Assembly (NCBI GenBank): GCA_020852815.1
Contig: JADZAN010000019.1
Coordinates: 248,001-312,000 of the forward strand
Length of the DNA: 64,000 nt
Reading direction: 5' to 3'
DNA from: Gemmatimonadaceae bacterium
Lineage (GTDB): Bacteria > Gemmatimonadota > Gemmatimonadetes > Gemmatimonadales > Gemmatimonadaceae
Part shown: positions 35,661 through 45,430 of the stretch, one piece after another
How the letters are laid out: the number at the start of each line of letters is the position of its first letter
Position numbering within the stretch: the first letter of the stretch is position 1
Notes under the pieces: model-generated
Database searches by the model: none
The model's input: the letters and a program-made list of their open reading frames with translations, nothing else
Told to the model about the DNA's origin: nothing
Program-made: the position numbers and the translations under genes

Positions 35661-37961
35661 CTAGAAGCTCTGCATCGAGTTCCAGTCGTCGTCGTCGAGC
35701 GGAATCGAGATCTCCGGTAGCTCGCGCGCGGCTGCTTTCGGAGGGGCACCCTTGGACGGCGGCGGCTTCACGCGGAACGCCTTGCTCGCGGCTGATGTCG
35801 GACTGGAGCTGGCAGGGACGGCGTGCGCGACGGCAGGCTTGTCAGGCACCGCTCGCGCCGCTGGCGCCTTGTTAGGCACCGCTCGCGCCGCTGGCGCCTT
35901 GTTAGGCGTAAGGCGTGCGGCCGCGGGCCTTTCAGGCACGACGCGCGCGGTCGGGGCTTTGTCAGGCGCAACGTGAGGGGCAGCGACCTTCTCCGTCACA
36001 GCATGCGTGGCCGCCGCCCTGGTCGGCGCCGCGCGGCGCGCCAGCCTGAACTCACCCACCAAGGCACGCAGCGCCTCGCTCGTCTCGCCCAGGTTGCGTG
36101 ACGCTTCCTCGCTCTCATCGGCGGCCGCCGCCACCGCCTGGGTGCGCCGCGACATCTCCTCCAGCGCACGATCGATCAGTTCCACCCCCTTCGACTGCTC
36201 GTCGCTCGCCACGGCAATCTCCCCCACCACCTGCCCCACGCGGTTCACGCGGTCGTCGATCTCACTCAACTGCTGCAGCACCTGCGCGTTGAGGGCGACA
36301 CCCTGCTCGGTGGCGCGCACGGACTGCTCGATGAGCTCGGCCGTGCTCCGTGCCGCCTCGGCCGAGCGCATGGCGAGCGTGCGCACCTCGTCGGCGACGA
36401 CGGCGAACCCTTTCCCACTGTCACCAGCGCGCGCCGCCTCCACCGCGGCGTTCAGCGCCAGCAGGTTGGTCTGGAACGCGATCTCGTCGATGGTCCGGAC
36501 GATCCTCGCCGTCGACACGGCGCTCTGCTGGATCTGGACGATGGCGTCGGCCAGGCGTCGCACCTCGAGTACCCCTGCGGAGGTGCTGGCGCGCGCCCCC
36601 TCGCTCAGCGAGCGCCCTTCGGCGGCGCTGGCCGCGTTGCGCCTGGTCATCGCCGCCAGCTCACGCGCGCTCGCCGACACTTCCTCCAGCGAGGCCGCCT
36701 GGTCGCTGGCGCCGCGCGCCAGCTCCTTGCTCCCGGCGTCGATCTGCTGTGCAGAACTGGCCACCCCCTGGGCCGTGTCGGTCACCGCCCCCATCGCTTC
36801 GGACAGTTTGTCGAGCGCGCTGTTCAGCGACTGCTGGATGCGCGCATGGTCGCCGCGGTAGTTCCCTTCCACGCGTGAGGTGAGGTCGCGCTGCGCCAAC
36901 CGCTCCAGCGTCTCCGTGGCGGCGTTGACCGGCGCGATGACGAGGTCGAGCGTGTGGTTGATCCCTTCGACGAGCGCGCGGAACGAACCGTCGAAGGCCG
37001 CCGCGTCGCCCCGTTGCGACAGCTCCCCTTCCCTGGCCGCGCGCGACAGGGCGTTGGACTCCTCGATGAGGGCGCGCACGATGCGGCGCGCCTCCTCGAA
37101 CGACGCCACCGTTGCCTGCGTCTGCGCGATGATGTCGTTCACGTTCGTGGTCAGGACGCCGATCTCGTCGGTCGAGGTCACTGGGAGGAGCTGCGTGCGC
37201 GGCGCAATGGCCGCGGCGAGGTCGCCACGCGTCATGGCGTCGAGCGCCGCGCGCAGCTCGGCGATGCAGGCGCCACGCAGCGTCTGCACGCGCTCCACCA
37301 CCGCGCTCAGCGACGTCGTGATCCCCCGCTCGATGAGGAAGCCCAGGGCGAGCGCGATCAGGATCAGGAGGACGGACGACAGCATCACGATCAGCTTGGC
37401 GCGCGCGACGGCGCTGGCGCTCGCCGCGCTCAGCCTCGCCGTGTGGACCTCGATCTCCTTGCCCAGCGCGCCCAGCTCCCGTTCCAGCGTGGCAAACGCT
37501 TCCTCGAAGCGCTCGACTGCCGGCGCCAACGCGGCCTTGTCTCCCGATGCAGCCGCCAGCTGCACCGCGCGCGCCCTTGTTTCCAATGCCTCGATATCGG
37601 GGCGCAGCGACTGCGCGCGCTTCACGATGTCGGGGTGACGGCTCTCGCCCGCGACGCTCGCCATCGCCTCCTTCAGCACCTTCGCGTCCCCCAGCAGGTC
37701 GTGCTCGGCGCGGACGCGGCGCGTCTCGTTCGCCATCTGCGCGGCCAGTATCGCCGAGTAGACGTCGGATCGCATTGCGACATGCGCCAAGTCGCCCTGC
37801 ATCCGGGCGCGCTGCGCGGCGGCGCTGGTGGAGAGTCCTTCGACGGTGGCGACGCTGGTGCCAAGCGTCAGGTAGCCGATCCCGCCAACGACGATGGTGC
37901 CGGTAACGCCGAGGAATGCGAGCAGGAAAAGCTTCGCACGCAACGAAAGGGTCGAGAGCAT
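35661..37961 (-). CDS. Methyl-accepting chemotaxis protein with repetitive C-terminal tail
   Basis: A 766-residue chemoreceptor. TM1 ([22 protein letters not shown]), a four-helix-type periplasmic sensor of about 150 residues, TM2 ([20 protein letters not shown]), HAMP-like and linker helices, then the signalling hairpin tip ([20 protein letters not shown]). It would signal to CheA/CheW, but no che genes are in the window. After the receptor core a ~110-residue Ala/Pro-rich tail contains repeats of [10 protein letters not shown] encoded by 30-bp DNA repeats, ending [11 protein letters not shown]. The acidic/aromatic end could be a docking peptide, which is speculative. The start at 37961 gives the expected short cytoplasmic N-terminus. 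Confidence 0.9.
35851..35910. repeat. 30-bp direct repeat in chemoreceptor tail
   Basis: Two nearly identical 30-bp units (GCTCGCGCCGCTGGCGCCTT and the following ten bases), with degenerate copies alongside, encode the [10 protein letters not shown] repeats. Confidence 0.85.
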
Positions 37962-38123
37962 GTGCGCAAGTCGGAAACCGAGAGGGCCGTCGGCGTCGCC
38001 GAGCGACCGCGAGGGAGGCCATCGCTGGCGCTCACCCCGCTGCTCCAAGTATCGACCGCGTTCAAGAGTCGCTGAAGACTCGCGCCCCGCGTGCGCTGAC
38101 CGCGGTGCCTGACGAGCTTCGCG

Positions 38124-38567
38124 TCACACTCTCGGGTCGAATGTCGACAGGACAGCCTCGAGTCGCGACAGCTCGAATGGCTTCTCGAGCACTGGACAAC
38201 CGCACTGCTGCAGGAACTCGGCCGCCTCGGGTTCCTGCACGTCGCCGCTGGCAAAAACGAGCCGTTGCGCGAGGTCGGGGCGGTGGCACCTGGCCCACGC
38301 ATGCAGCTCCGGTCCGCTCAGCGACGGCATCCGCAGGTCGCAGATGATCAGGTCGAAGTCGCGCGCCTTCGCCGGCTCGCCCCCGTCGCGCAGTTGTGCC
38401 AGCGCCACTTGGCCGTCGGGTGCCTCGGCCACTTCCCAGCCGCGACGCTTGAGCCAGCGGCGCAGCACGCTGCGCACCGCACCTTCGTCGTCGATGACCA
38501 GGGCGCGCCTCACCGGCGACCGGTCGAGCAGCGTGCGTCGAGCGGTGTGCAGATCGGCGGACGGCAT
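38124..38567 (-). CDS. Single-domain response regulator (CheY-like)
   Basis: A 147-residue receiver domain: ALVIDDEGAVRSVLRRWL (acidic pair), FDLIICDLRMPSLSG (phospho-acceptor Asp), RLVFASGD and VLEKPFELSRL (conserved Lys). There is no output domain, so it acts by protein contact. It sits 160 bp upstream of the chemoreceptor gene on the same strand, making a chemotaxis or phosphorelay link plausible, and is separate from the LytTR regulator. The start at 38567 is the Met nearest the domain; an in-frame alternative 54 bp upstream would add a Pro-rich leader. Confidence 0.85.
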   Translation of the reverse strand: MPSADLHTARRTLLDRSPVRRALVIDDEGAVRSVLRRWLKRRGWEVAEAPDGQVALAQLRDGGEPAKARDFDLIICDLRMPSLSGPELHAWARCHRPDLAQRLVFASGDVQEPEAAEFLQQCGCPVLEKPFELSRLEAVLSTFDPRV

Positions 38568-38684
38568 GCGGGGGGGGCGAGGCAGGGTCGGCAGCAAGGC
38601 CCCGGCGAGAGCCGGAGACATCTATTGGTATCGGCGTATGTCACGAAATGCTTGAGCCCTTCCCCGACCCGTCGCCCGTGGCGA

Positions 38685-39521
38685 CTAGGCAAAACGGTGC
38701 ATGCGCGACTGCAAGTGTTCGCGATAGGTACGGCTGAGCTTGAGCTGACGCCCATCGCGCAGGATCACCACGTAGTCGCCGGCAAACCACGGCTGGAGCT
38801 CCTTGATCCGATCGATGTTGACGATCACGGCGCGGTGGATGCGCACGAACATCGAGGGGTCGAGCTGCGCCTCCACGTGGTGCATGGTCTCGCGGATGAG
38901 GTGCGAGACTTTCCCTGTGTGGACGCGCACATAGTTCCCCGACGCCTCGAACCAGTCCACGTCGCTGACCTTGACGAAGAAGACGCGGCCGTCGTGCTTC
39001 ACCATCAGGCGGTCGAGGAACCGCGTGCGCGGCATCGTGCCCGGCGCGCCGGACGGTTGCGCCGGCCGATCGGCGAGTGCCGCCGTCGCGCGGTCCTCGC
39101 CCAGCACCTGCTCCAGCAATGCGCGGATCTTCCGCCCCTGCTCCGCCGAGCTCTCCCGTTCGATGTGCGACCGCGCCCGCTGGAAGGCGGCGCGAAAGCG
39201 CTCCGGGTCGTAGGGCTTGAGGAGGTAGTCGATCGCGTTCACGTCGAACGCACGCACCGCGTATTCATTGAACGCAGTGACGAAGATCGTCGGCGGCATC
39301 TGCTCGGCTCCCAGTGCCCCTACCACGCCAAAGCCGTCCACGTCCGGCATCTGCACGTCGAGCAGGACCAGGTCCGGGGGGTCCTTCCGGATGGCATCGA
39401 TAGCCTCGCCACCGCTCCCCGCCTCGTCGATGACGTCGACGTCCGGTTCGAGGCGCAGGAGCCGTCGCACGCGACGACGGGCGATCGGTTCGTCGTCCAC
39501 CACCAATACGCGAATCGGCAT
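38685..39521 (-). CDS. LytTR-family response regulator
   Basis: A 278-residue transcription regulator with a receiver domain (VLVVDDEPIARRR, LVLLDVQMPDVDGFG, FVTAFNEYAVRAFDVNAIDYLLKPY) and a C-terminal LytTR DNA-binding domain (VSDVDWFEASGNYVRVHTG, MFVRIHRAVIVNIDRIKEL, LKLSRTYREHLQSRM). LytTR proteins bind direct repeats upstream of target promoters. The ATG at 39521 has GGGAG seven bases upstream. It begins 20 nt after the tandem LytS kinase gene on the same strand, so the two form a two-component operon. Confidence 0.93.
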   Translation of the reverse strand: MPIRVLVVDDEPIARRRVRRLLRLEPDVDVIDEAGSGGEAIDAIRKDPPDLVLLDVQMPDVDGFGVVGALGAEQMPPTIFVTAFNEYAVRAFDVNAIDYLLKPYDPERFRAAFQRARSHIERESSAEQGRKIRALLEQVLGEDRATAALADRPAQPSGAPGTMPRTRFLDRLMVKHDGRVFFVKVSDVDWFEASGNYVRVHTGKVSHLIRETMHHVEAQLDPSMFVRIHRAVIVNIDRIKELQPWFAGDYVVILRDGRQLKLSRTYREHLQSRMHRFA

Positions 39522-39541: not shown

Positions 39542-42133
39542 TTAGGCAACGGCCGCCGCCCACTCGGCGGAGACCGCGGTGGCAATCTCTGGGGCATCGG
39601 CAATGAGGAGCACCGCCGACGCACGGTCGGGAAAGGTCACGCTCACCAGCGCACCCGCGTCGGCCACCGCCGCCTCGGCGACGCTCTTGGTGCGCCACCA
39701 GGCGTGCGACCCGCTCCCGCCGGGCCCGGCGCCCGCGGGCGACGCATTGCGAGCGCGCCAGTCGGCCTCGCCGCGCAGCCGCACGCGCGTCACGTCGGCC
39801 GCGCGATCCACCTCCAGCCGTACGGTGAGCGACTCGGCGGGATTCAATGAATCGGCGACGAGGAGGTCGTCGACCATCGTGCAGACCAGGCGACTGGGAA
39901 TGCGCAGCGATAGCGCGTCGGGTGGAACGTTGGTCACCAGCCGCACCCCGGGGCGAATCCCATCGCGGTGGGTGTCGACGCAGGCAACGAGCAGTTCGAG
40001 TTCCTGTCGAACCGAACTGGTTGCCTCTCGCCCGAGTTCGAGCGTGAGGCGCAGCGTGTCGGCCAGGCGTGTGATCAAGCGTTCCGTACGCGGCACGTCG
40101 CGGTGCACCAGCTCGGCGAGCAGGTCGAGCGTGGCAAGGAGGAACTGCGGGCGGAGCTGCACGCGGAGCGCCTGGAAGCGGGAGCCGGCGATGCGCGCCG
40201 ACAGGCGCGCCCCCTCCAGTTCCCGCGCGCGATACCAGTTCACGAAGTCGCGCGCGTGCGACCACGCCAGCAGCCCGAAGTAGACGAAGAAGTCGCCGGT
40301 GAGGGGATTCATGTTCCCCGGCGACAGCACTGGCATCTGGCTCAATCCCGTGGCCTGCATGACCCCCGTATGCACCAGCCCTGCGCATACCCCAAAGGCC
40401 GCGTGCAGGGGCAACCGGCGCATCCAGTTCCCGGAGTCGATGCGGAACCTGCGCGCCAGTGCGACGACCACTGGTGACAGACCGAGCCAGATGATCGAGG
40501 TCGCCACCTGCAAGCGCGCCAGCTCCAGCCATGAATAGCCGTCGCTTGGCCGCATGGAGTTGGAGTACAAGACCATCTGGTTGGTCCACACCACGGCCAT
40601 CGCGAACCAGAGCAGTCCGATACCGCCCCACGCCTTCCAGGACAACCCCGGGGTGGAGCCTCGCGGCTCGGCGGACGGGGGGGGCGCCGGCACCGGTCGC
40701 TCCGCCGCGCGGAAGCTCCCGCTCGGTTGCCACTGCGGCGCGGGCGTCGACTCCACGATTGCCTCGACCGGCGGAGCCTCTGGCTTGCTCTCCTCCAACT
40801 CGGGAAAGACGGTGGAGAACTCGCCCGTGCGCCATGTGGACGGGTCGTCGAGCGTGGTCGACGCCATCGCGTCGGCCAGGCTCACGTGCTGCGGCGTGGG
40901 GTGTGCCTGGGCGGTCCCGTCGCGATACGGCAGTTCCAGCTCCACGACCACCCCGCCCTGCTCCCCCTCGCGCAGCTCGAAGCGATGGGTGCTGCCGTAC
41001 AACTGGCGCAGGCGCTCGCTGGCATTGCGCAACCCGATCCCCTCGCGCCGGTTGGGGTCGCGCGTGCTTTGCGCCTGACGGAGACCGACCCCGTCGTCCT
41101 CCACCCGCAGCAGCAGGCGATCGCCCACGCGCCGCGCCGCGACGTGCACGCGACCGGGCCCCTGCCGCACCGAGAGCCCGTGCCGGATCGCGTTCTCCAC
41201 CAGCGGCTGCAGGATGAGGTGCGGCACCAGCGCGCGACGCCACTCCAGCGCCACGTCGACCTCCACCTGCAACCAGTCCGAGAAACGCGTGCGCTGGATG
41301 TCGAGATACGGCTCGAGCGCCGCAAGCTCCTCGTCCAGCGTCACCTCATCCCGCCCCGAGCGCTCGAGCGAGATGGCCAGCAGCGTGTGAAGTCGCCGCA
41401 GCATACGCTCCGCCGCATCCGGCGACTCGTGCGCCAGCTCCGAGATGGCATTGAGCGCGTTGAACAGGAAGTGCGGCTGCAGCTGCAGCTCGAGGTACTG
41501 CAGCTGCGCGCGCGCCAGTTGCGCCTCCAGCAGGTGGGCGCGCACCGTTCGGTCCACGTAACGCCGGCGCACCGTGAGTGCATGCGCGACAACCACCAGC
41601 GCGACATACACGAAGAGCCACACGTCGAACCAGTAGAAGAGCATCGGGACGTACGGCTCCGGGCTCCACGTCGCGAAGAACGCCATCGACGTGCGCAGGA
41701 GCGCGGTGAGCACCATGGCGCAGGCCATCGCCGACACGCTGTGTGTCAGTAGGCTCACTCCCCACCCCACGCGCGAGGGGGCCACCCGTCGCGTGAGGCG
41801 AAACAACCATGGCGTGAGCAGCGCCCACATCGCCGCCACCGCCAGCGCGGTCGGCATCGTCCAACGCATCGCCCGCGACGGGTCGCGCGCCGCCGCCGTC
41901 CACACCACGCCGTACATCACCCCGAAGAACAACCACGTCCCGGCCACGACGGCCCAGAACGGGGGAGCGGCGACGCGAGGCGAAGACGTCGTGGAGGCGA
42001 CCATTCTCGGAGGAAGACGCACGCCAGCCCCCACCGACGCTGAGGTCGGGGTGGCGAGCGCCGGTTCATCCAAGGAAGCGGTCGAACGAGGGGGGGCCAA
42101 GTCGCTGGGGACGAAGGGACCGGGAGACGGCAT
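39542..42133 (-). CDS. Tandem LytS-type histidine kinase with degenerate second kinase module
   Basis: An 863-residue protein made of two similar halves. Half one: four membrane spans, then the LytS phosphorylation motif QLQPHFLFNALNAISELAHE and an ATPase domain (LQPLVENAIRHGL, VEDDGVGL, GIGLRNASERL). Half two repeats the plan: membrane spans (AWGGIGLLWFAMAVVWTNQMV onward), then QLRPQFLLATLDLLAELVH, in which the phospho-acceptor His is Gln. The N box is changed to CTMVDDLLVADSL and the glycine boxes are not recognisable. So an active kinase appears fused to a pseudokinase. It is upstream of and co-transcribed with the LytTR regulator. The ATG at 42133 was chosen; an upstream GTG (42169) lies in a short repeat. 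Confidence 0.88.
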   Translation of the reverse strand: MPSPGPFVPSDLAPPRSTASLDEPALATPTSASVGAGVRLPPRMVASTTSSPRVAAPPFWAVVAGTWLFFGVMYGVVWTAAARDPSRAMRWTMPTALAVAAMWALLTPWLFRLTRRVAPSRVGWGVSLLTHSVSAMACAMVLTALLRTSMAFFATWSPEPYVPMLFYWFDVWLFVYVALVVVAHALTVRRRYVDRTVRAHLLEAQLARAQLQYLELQLQPHFLFNALNAISELAHESPDAAERMLRRLHTLLAISLERSGRDEVTLDEELAALEPYLDIQRTRFSDWLQVEVDVALEWRRALVPHLILQPLVENAIRHGLSVRQGPGRVHVAARRVGDRLLLRVEDDGVGLRQAQSTRDPNRREGIGLRNASERLRQLYGSTHRFELREGEQGGVVVELELPYRDGTAQAHPTPQHVSLADAMASTTLDDPSTWRTGEFSTVFPELEESKPEAPPVEAIVESTPAPQWQPSGSFRAAERPVPAPPPSAEPRGSTPGLSWKAWGGIGLLWFAMAVVWTNQMVLYSNSMRPSDGYSWLELARLQVATSIIWLGLSPVVVALARRFRIDSGNWMRRLPLHAAFGVCAGLVHTGVMQATGLSQMPVLSPGNMNPLTGDFFVYFGLLAWSHARDFVNWYRARELEGARLSARIAGSRFQALRVQLRPQFLLATLDLLAELVHRDVPRTERLITRLADTLRLTLELGREATSSVRQELELLVACVDTHRDGIRPGVRLVTNVPPDALSLRIPSRLVCTMVDDLLVADSLNPAESLTVRLEVDRAADVTRVRLRGEADWRARNASPAGAGPGGSGSHAWWRTKSVAEAAVADAGALVSVTFPDRASAVLLIADAPEIATAVSAEWAAAVA

Positions 42134-42281
42134 GAGCCGAGCATCGGCGACCAGCCGAGCATCGGCCACCAGCCAGGCAACGGCGGCCAGCCGACCCGGT
42201 CGGCAAACCCCGATCAGTCGACTGGCCGCCGCCCTTCACACCACGCGATTGGATACGGCATGTGGGGTGAAAGGTTTCTTG

Positions 42282-43816: not shown

Positions 43817-45430
43817 CTACCTCTTGCCCGGCGGCGTTACCGGTGCGGCCAGGATGCGGCGCCTCACCTCGGTCGGCGACTGGCGCAGGTGGCACGGGGC
43901 GCATTCGCGTCCGGGCTCGTGCGTCACCTGCTTCACGTGGCAGCTCAGGCAGAAGGCGCGGTCGGGGAGCAGGCGCGCCACCGTCTCGCGCACATGGCAA
44001 CTCACGCACTTGTAGTGCGTGTCCATCTTGTGATCCGCGAGCATCGTGTTGCCGTGGCACTGCGCGCATCCGCTCGCCTTTTCCTTGTGGTGATCGGCGT
44101 GGCACGACGCGCAACTCGACACCTCCTTCACCGCGCCGGGCGTCGTGTGACACTGGGCGCACGTCGTCTTCTCGTGCTGCGAATGCTGGAACGCCACCGC
44201 GCGCGACCGCGGGGCCTTCTCTGGCTGCAGCGTCAGCGCCATCGTGACCCGGATGGGCTGCTTGAGGCGTGCATCGGTCGCGTGGCACGCGGTGCACTCG
44301 ACCTTCGTGGTGGGGGCGTGGTGGCAGCTCTCGCACGACGCCTTGGTCAGCGTCGTCTTCCCATGTCGCGCATCGACATCGCGATCCACCGAGGGTGACG
44401 AGGTTCCGCCACCGGCGAAGTAGTTGTAGTTGCTGTGGCACTCCTTGCACGCCACCGCCGATCGCACCAGGTGCGTGGCGTGGTCGAACGACTCGTCGAA
44501 GACGGTCTTCCGCGCCGTCTCCACACCGTAGTGGCAACTGACGCAGCCGTTGGTGGCCGGGCTCGGACCCAGTGCCGGGCGGGCCGGTGCGGCAACTCCC
44601 GCGCGTGCATACGCCGAGGCCGTGCTGTCCAGTGCCGCACGAAACAGTTGGTCGGCACCTCGCACGTTGTGCACCGGTCCCGCGAGCTGCAACAGGTCCA
44701 CCGCCTGCCGCGCCCCGCGCACGCGCGAACGCGCCGCATCGCCGGCCAGTCGGGCGTCGCCGGCCGCTTGCGAGACATAGCCCGCCACCGCGCGCGAACG
44801 CCACTCGACGCCGGTGCGCCAGCGCGCCAGCATCCCGCTGAACCGGCGTCCGTGACAGCTCGTACACATGCGGTCCATCGCGGCCAGACGCTGCGGGCCA
44901 TGCGGCGCCGCGAACGTCGAGTCGTTGTGGCACCCGGCGCACGACACGCGCGTGACGAACATCGTGTCGGGATGGATGCGCGCCCCCCGCACCAGCCCCG
45001 CATAGAACGACTGTTCCACCTGGTGAGACGTGTCGTGGCACCCGAGGCAGGTCAGCGACACCTCGGGGGCGCGCCCCAGCGGCGCCTTGTGCACGCCCTC
45101 ATGGCAGGCAGCGCATTCCGACCGAAGCGTTGCCTCGCCGCCAAGGCCGCGTGCCGTGCCGATGAGCGAGTCGCCACCCACCGGTGTGACTAACGATGTG
45201 GTGTCGACCTCCACCTCCTTCGTGGACTGGCGCCGGTTCTCGACGTCCTGTGCCGCTCGCCGACGCGTCTCGAGATTCGACGACTCGCGCTGGCAACCGG
45301 CCACGAGCAGGGCAAGCATTCCAACGACGGCGAGGACTGACGCGCGGACGCCACGTGCCGCGCCGCGCATCGCTCGCGCCGCGCGCCACCACGCTCCCTG
45401 CGTTGCCCATCCCCGCCGGGCGCTTGTCAT
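43817..45430 (-). CDS. 14-heme c-type cytochrome, lipoprotein
   Basis: A 537-residue cytochrome with 14 CXXCH motifs and a lipoprotein signal (VLAVVGMLALLVAGCQRE, lipobox VAGC). The first four hemes form one group (CAACH, CLGCH, CAGCH, CTSCH). A heme-free helical stretch of about 120 residues follows, then ten more hemes. Its N-terminal lipid anchor would hold it to a membrane, most likely the outer one since the residue after Cys is Gln, though sorting rules in this phylum are not established. It is the last gene of a five-gene operon: its ATG overlaps the TGA of the cytochrome b gene. Likely role: terminal or surface electron carrier of the conduit. Confidence 0.9.
   Translation of the reverse strand: MTSARRGWATQGAWWRAARAMRGAARGVRASVLAVVGMLALLVAGCQRESSNLETRRRAAQDVENRRQSTKEVEVDTTSLVTPVGGDSLIGTARGLGGEATLRSECAACHEGVHKAPLGRAPEVSLTCLGCHDTSHQVEQSFYAGLVRGARIHPDTMFVTRVSCAGCHNDSTFAAPHGPQRLAAMDRMCTSCHGRRFSGMLARWRTGVEWRSRAVAGYVSQAAGDARLAGDAARSRVRGARQAVDLLQLAGPVHNVRGADQLFRAALDSTASAYARAGVAAPARPALGPSPATNGCVSCHYGVETARKTVFDESFDHATHLVRSAVACKECHSNYNYFAGGGTSSPSVDRDVDARHGKTTLTKASCESCHHAPTTKVECTACHATDARLKQPIRVTMALTLQPEKAPRSRAVAFQHSQHEKTTCAQCHTTPGAVKEVSSCASCHADHHKEKASGCAQCHGNTMLADHKMDTHYKCVSCHVRETVARLLPDRAFCLSCHVKQVTHEPGRECAPCHLRQSPTEVRRRILAAPVTPPGKR

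Follow-up and report, generated by a model that had tools for sequence, protein, structure and literature searches.

A family-wide tandem sensor kinase of the Gemmatimonadaceae, with one live and one dead half that may share an active site

The window, by which we mean the whole 64,000-nucleotide stretch of Gemmatimonadaceae DNA analysed here, carries on its minus strand a gene for a tandem sensor kinase, followed by the genes for a LytTR response regulator and a stand-alone receiver domain (Table 1). The kinase is read in one uninterrupted frame of 875 amino acids from a GTG at 42169; an alternative start, the ATG at 42133 that was used in an earlier note on this DNA, would yield 863 amino acids, and either may be the true one. 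A gap of 20 bp separates the kinase stop from the LytTR regulator, whose ATG is preceded by a ribosome-binding-like AAGGAAGGGAG, recognized by eye. The earlier note had described a continuous gene followed by its LytTR regulator, and this is the layout that we find.

Table 1. Features of the tandem kinase locus in the window (residue numbers count from the GTG start)
Feature	Position	Strand	Basis
Tandem kinase-pseudokinase gene	39542..42169	-	ORF, translation, Pfam; matching architecture in relatives
N-half membrane domain, 4 predicted spans, aa 70-200	41570..41962	-	hydropathy; model helices
N-half DHp (PF06580), aa 221-298	41276..41509	-	Pfam; DHp alignment
Phosphoacceptor H233 of N-half DHp	41473-41471	-	
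Ala265, N-half residue in the helix-2 Arg column	41377-41375	-	
N-half catalytic domain (HATPase_c) with N, G1 and G2 boxes, aa 317-416	40922..41221	-	Pfam, alignment
Linker, ~90 residues, predicted disordered, poorly conserved	40640..40915	-	pLDDT; identity within genus
C-half membrane domain, aa 511-645	40235..40639	-	conservation, hydropathy, model
C-half DHp without His, aa 650-715	40025..40222	-	Pfam, DHp alignment
Q675 of C-half DHp	40147-40145	-	
Conserved D704 of C-half DHp	40060-40058	-	
Conserved R707 of C-half DHp	40051-40049	-	
C-half GHKL-fold remnant without N, G1 and G2 boxes, aa 718-845	39635..40018	-	alignment, model, fold comparison
LytTR response regulator (receiver + LytTR)	38685-39521	-	Pfam; tblastn in relatives; residues
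Stand-alone receiver domain	38124..38621	-	Pfam; neighbour comparison; residues

In the Pfam search, PF06580 (His_kinase) matches the whole protein twice (111.7 bits), while the HATPase_c match is confined to the N half, in agreement with the earlier proposal of an active kinase fused to a degenerate duplicate. The C half taken alone still matches PF06580 with an E value of 1.2e-8 and 35.6 bits, above the curated cut-off of 25.2, so that the second half does not fail to align to the kinase family. The N half has its phosphoacceptor H233 in QLQPHFLF, an N box VENAIRHG (from 324), a G1 box DDGVGL (358) and a G2 box GIGLRN (377), and is by its sequence an intact PF06580 (LytS/AlgZ-type) histidine kinase, predicted to be active. 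In the C half, the motif reads QLRPQFLL and Q675 stands in the place of H233. The place of the N box reads VDDLLVADS (from 766), and neither G1 nor G2 has a counterpart in the C half. The exchange of His for Gln, the altered N box and the missing glycine boxes were thus correctly described before. Because the phosphoacceptor His is missing, the C half is a degenerate relative of PF06580 and not a kinase.

The boxes are gone from the C half, but the domain itself appears to be still there, because the structure model of this half (mean pLDDT 73.5) retains the full DHp and GHKL topology. Its best match among solved structures is the GanS kinase domain (6swk; VIA Z 12.9, rmsd 5.3, 167 residues), followed by ChpT (4fmt/4fpp, Z 11.7), and many kinase catalytic domains score Z values of ~10-11. 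The modelled C half thus has the GHKL/Bergerat fold. The orthologous dead halves share an invariant His-x-Trp-Trp motif, at residues ~821-829 of the window protein, about where the lid and the G2 box have been lost. The full-length model has a pTM of 0.45, and its placement of the domains relative to one another is therefore unreliable. The linker has a pLDDT of ~29 over residues 356-442 of that model, and an identity of 44-45% within the genus. Hydropathy indicates four spans in the N half, and three clear spans with one weak one in the C half. The description of these spans as LytS-like holds loosely: a Pfam scan up to E 10 gave no match to 5TMR_LYT or GAF domains anywhere in the protein, which is LytS-like by its kinase core only. 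Pfam also identified no receiver domain within the chain.

A LytTR regulator, with 46-88% identity in the relatives, adjoins the tandem kinase in all relatives with a searched flank except L052, where tblastn gave no match. The kinase and its adjacent receiver-LytTR protein are thus arranged as a LytS/LytTR two-component pair. The stand-alone receiver lies 64 bp downstream of the regulator, and a relative occupies the same place in L058, L060 and L062, which belong to another genus. Its acidic, Ser and Lys positions look intact, and we would guess that it serves the system as a second output, a second phosphate acceptor or a phosphate sink. Apart from this receiver, the neighbour comparison yielded no conserved target genes beside the kinase-regulator pair. 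The wider surroundings in the window, all on the minus strand, include a chemoreceptor-like protein with MCP signal and HAMP domains and an Ala/Pro-rich repetitive C-terminal tail (35661-38048), and a multihaem cytochrome c gene with Cytochrom_c3/C7 and MtrC/MtrF-like matches (43817-45430). Further CxxCH-rich and membrane ORFs continue beyond the latter to ~48188, and together with the cytochrome gene they look like an electron-transfer cluster.

The double architecture, for which a search in related genomes had been suggested, recurs in this family of soil bacteria. Of the 179 Gemmatimonadaceae genomes searched, at least 23 carry the tandem kinase, as a whole gene or in split pieces; they include both other genomes of the genus and genomes of other genera, and a second search with shorter relatives as queries brought additional tandem genes. 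This conservation supports the built-in pseudokinase proposed earlier. In G002 the gene is divided between two contigs that overlap at their ends, within the linker, and was read as two pieces. Across bacteria and archaea, a scan that took one genome for each species, with two short patterns that would miss distant relatives, gave eight loci, all titled Gemmatimonadetes/Gemmatimonadaceae or Roseisolibacter. Within the genus, the dN/dS of the C half is ~0.16-0.17 against ~0.30 for the N half, values that are rough because they come from a simple counting method in GC-rich DNA. The membrane domain of the C half is about 74-75% identical within the genus, compared with 58-60% for that of the N half; across genera the two halves are conserved about equally. 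On these comparative data, the dead half is kept by selection.

Shorter tandem kinases (L039, L040, L048, L051, L052, L054, L134-L136 and L138) have a C half without a catalytic domain, in which the spans, the DHp helices and the helix-2 Arg are retained, showing a stepwise reduction of the dead half. The lost boxes and these short versions, which lack the entire C-terminal catalytic domain, are what one would expect if the C half were a functionless duplicate in decay. However, independent genomes of many genera carry the tandem gene, the window ORF contains no stop codon, dN/dS is low and the helix residues are strictly kept. We consider it hardly credible that the C half is decaying without a function, or that it was attached by a sequencing or assembly join error, and both explanations were rejected on the independent genomes and the selection.

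As to the origin of the tandem, an 84-row tree places 16 N halves in one group (support 100/100) and 16 C halves in another (100/99), with a broadly mirrored inner order. In a larger tree, the N halves again form one group (95), which counts a half from G187 labelled as a single kinase on a truncated contig, and 24 of the 26 C halves form one group (99); the C rows of L118 and L128 have long branches and fall outside this group. These trees fit a single old tandem event that would predate the radiation of the family. Grouping the N halves with the C halves was not rejected (p-AU 0.43), and the tandem may have arisen by one duplication or by a fusion. No intermediate with both His residues occurs among the 26 C halves. 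L128 (1613-3925, plus strand) and L129 (1861-4956, plus strand) are divergent tandem kinases with dead C halves and long branches, and may stem from the same old tandem or from a separate one; the frame of L129 continues into LytTR regulator sequence.

We compared the DHp domains of 26 N halves, 26 C halves and 59 single kinases of the phylum. The phosphoacceptor His is present in all N halves and all single kinases, and in none of the C halves, where it is replaced by Glu (10), Pro (8), Gln (6) or Ala (2). The Asn that follows the His shows the same trend, being kept in 1/26 C halves. Helix 2 displays the reverse. Its Arg is present in 59/59 single kinases and 26/26 C halves, and in 11/26 N halves; parsimony assigns four changes in this column to the N halves, and none to the C halves or the single kinases. 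The acidic residue three positions before the Arg occurs in 45/59 single kinases and 24/26 C halves, as against 1/26 N halves. In the window protein, the dead half has R707 and D704 where the live half has A265 and T262. Among the DHp columns listed, the Arg and the acid are those strongly kept in the C halves and lost from the N halves, whereas nearly all departures in the other conserved columns run in the opposite direction, with the C halves losing and the N halves keeping. Given the lengths of the N and C trees, the chance that all four changes fall among the N halves is ~0.04, a figure that was computed after the pattern had been seen and is to be read as modest. The retention of the Arg in every one of the otherwise eroded C halves is the stronger part of the pattern.

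Within the four-helix bundle of a DHp dimer, every helix 1 has two helices 2 as neighbours, its own and that of the partner. Counting from the His column, the Arg column comes 32 residues later and the hairpin roughly halfway, and on this DHp architecture the two residues would lie at a similar height of the bundle. The reading that we prefer, to which we assign a probability of roughly 55%, is that the two halves of one chain pair as an N:C pseudo-heterodimer in which helix 2 of the dead half completes the site of the live half. In a single ancient event, a PF06580-type sensor kinase would have been joined to another PF06580 kinase. The latter, now the second half, would have lost the phosphoacceptor His, and its full-length versions the ATP-binding boxes as well, while retaining its membrane domain and DHp helices. 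Both DHp domains of a chain would pack against each other in place of the usual homodimer. If helix 2 acts on the His of the partner, the residues on the live helix 2 would point to a dead site and could be lost freely, and the same residues on the dead helix 2, pointing to the live His, would be retained. Such a pairing leads to the expectation that the Arg is lost in N and kept in C, as seen, with the dead half supplying the Asp-x-x-Arg that the live helix 2 lost. It also predicts that the sole active catalytic domain phosphorylates the sole His, H233 on helix 1 of the N half, so that phosphorylation would stay within one half (in cis); trans phosphorylation would call for N:N pairing. Signals would enter through two non-identical four-span membrane domains, and the phosphate would pass to the adjacent LytTR regulator. 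The fixed pseudo-dimer that had been suggested for this protein gains support from the reciprocal Arg/acid pattern, and contact between the halves is the part of that suggestion that stays a prediction.

A stricter version of this pairing may be put forward tentatively. The protein would be a single-chain, intrinsically asymmetric kinase with a split active site, to which the live half contributes helix 1 with the His and the dead half an essential Asp-x-x-Arg of helix 2, so that the dead half is obligate and one phosphoryl group is carried per chain. The 11 N halves that keep the Arg imply that sharing is not obligatory in every lineage.

The helix-2 Arg could instead serve C:C pairing or the docking of a regulator. 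Homodimers are the rule for histidine kinases, and a linker of ~90 residues permits many arrangements, so ordinary N:N and C:C homodimers are conceivable, with the dead half serving as an extra sensor in the membrane that influences the live half allosterically. The membrane domain of the C half, more conserved than that of the N half within the genus, suits such a sensor. That the dead half senses a second signal, as suggested earlier, is likewise conceivable. This arrangement alone leaves unexplained why live halves lost an Arg that all single kinases and all dead halves have, and we hold it to be rather unlikely. A lower probability still goes to a dead half whose chief task is to dock or retain the response regulator, or else the stand-alone receiver next to it, through the kept helix-2 residues. 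The regulator does adjoin the kinase in relatives, the stand-alone receiver is conserved beside the regulator in another genus, and a Corynebacterium pseudokinase is thought possibly to recruit its regulator (PMC9491836). However, the helix motif kept by the short versions without a C-terminal catalytic domain fits docking to the bundle and pairing of the halves alike.

The common ground with LytS-type kinases such as BtsS is a PF06580 core beside a LytTR regulator. In BtsS of E. coli, one kinase core is combined with 5TMR_LYT and GAF domains (PMC10653868), whereas the tandem kinase has two four-span membrane domains and two kinase-like cores, one of them dead, and matches neither accessory domain. 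With TodS and TmoS it shares two kinase-like transmitter modules per chain. TodS is a soluble protein that runs a His-Asp-His-Asp relay through two autokinase modules, a receiver and PAS domains (PMC4321377); the tandem kinase, in contrast, is membrane-bound with one module dead and no receiver in the chain, and does not belong to the TodS type. A relay of two active modules was rejected, given that none of the 26 C halves has the His. DivL and a ChrS variant are likewise inactive kinase-fold proteins working with an active kinase; they act in trans, and ChrS and HrrS form heterodimers (PMC9491836). Those partners are separate chains, in contrast to the fusion of dead and live partner in the tandem kinase. 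ChpT resembles the C half in combining a DHp with a degenerate catalytic domain, but the C half lacks the His. A phosphotransferase needs its His, and a ChpT-like phosphotransferase was rejected in spite of the similar fold, since none of the 26 C halves has one. Janus kinases join a kinase and a pseudokinase in one chain, but with the unrelated eukaryotic protein kinase fold. A search of open-licence papers gave none that describes a LytS-type kinase in tandem with a dead copy, and none that treats systems of this kind in the phylum.

Histidine kinases are usually symmetric homodimers, which makes it hard to assign a role to each half. A natural one-chain kinase with one live and one dead half, kept across the family, separates these roles. 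Taken at face value, the reciprocal pattern would show from evolution alone that, in the PF06580 DHp, the conserved Arg acts from one side of the dimer on the other. Provided that the pairing of the two halves is true, the tandem kinase of the Gemmatimonadaceae would be a ready system for tests of cis versus trans phosphorylation and of one-site signalling.
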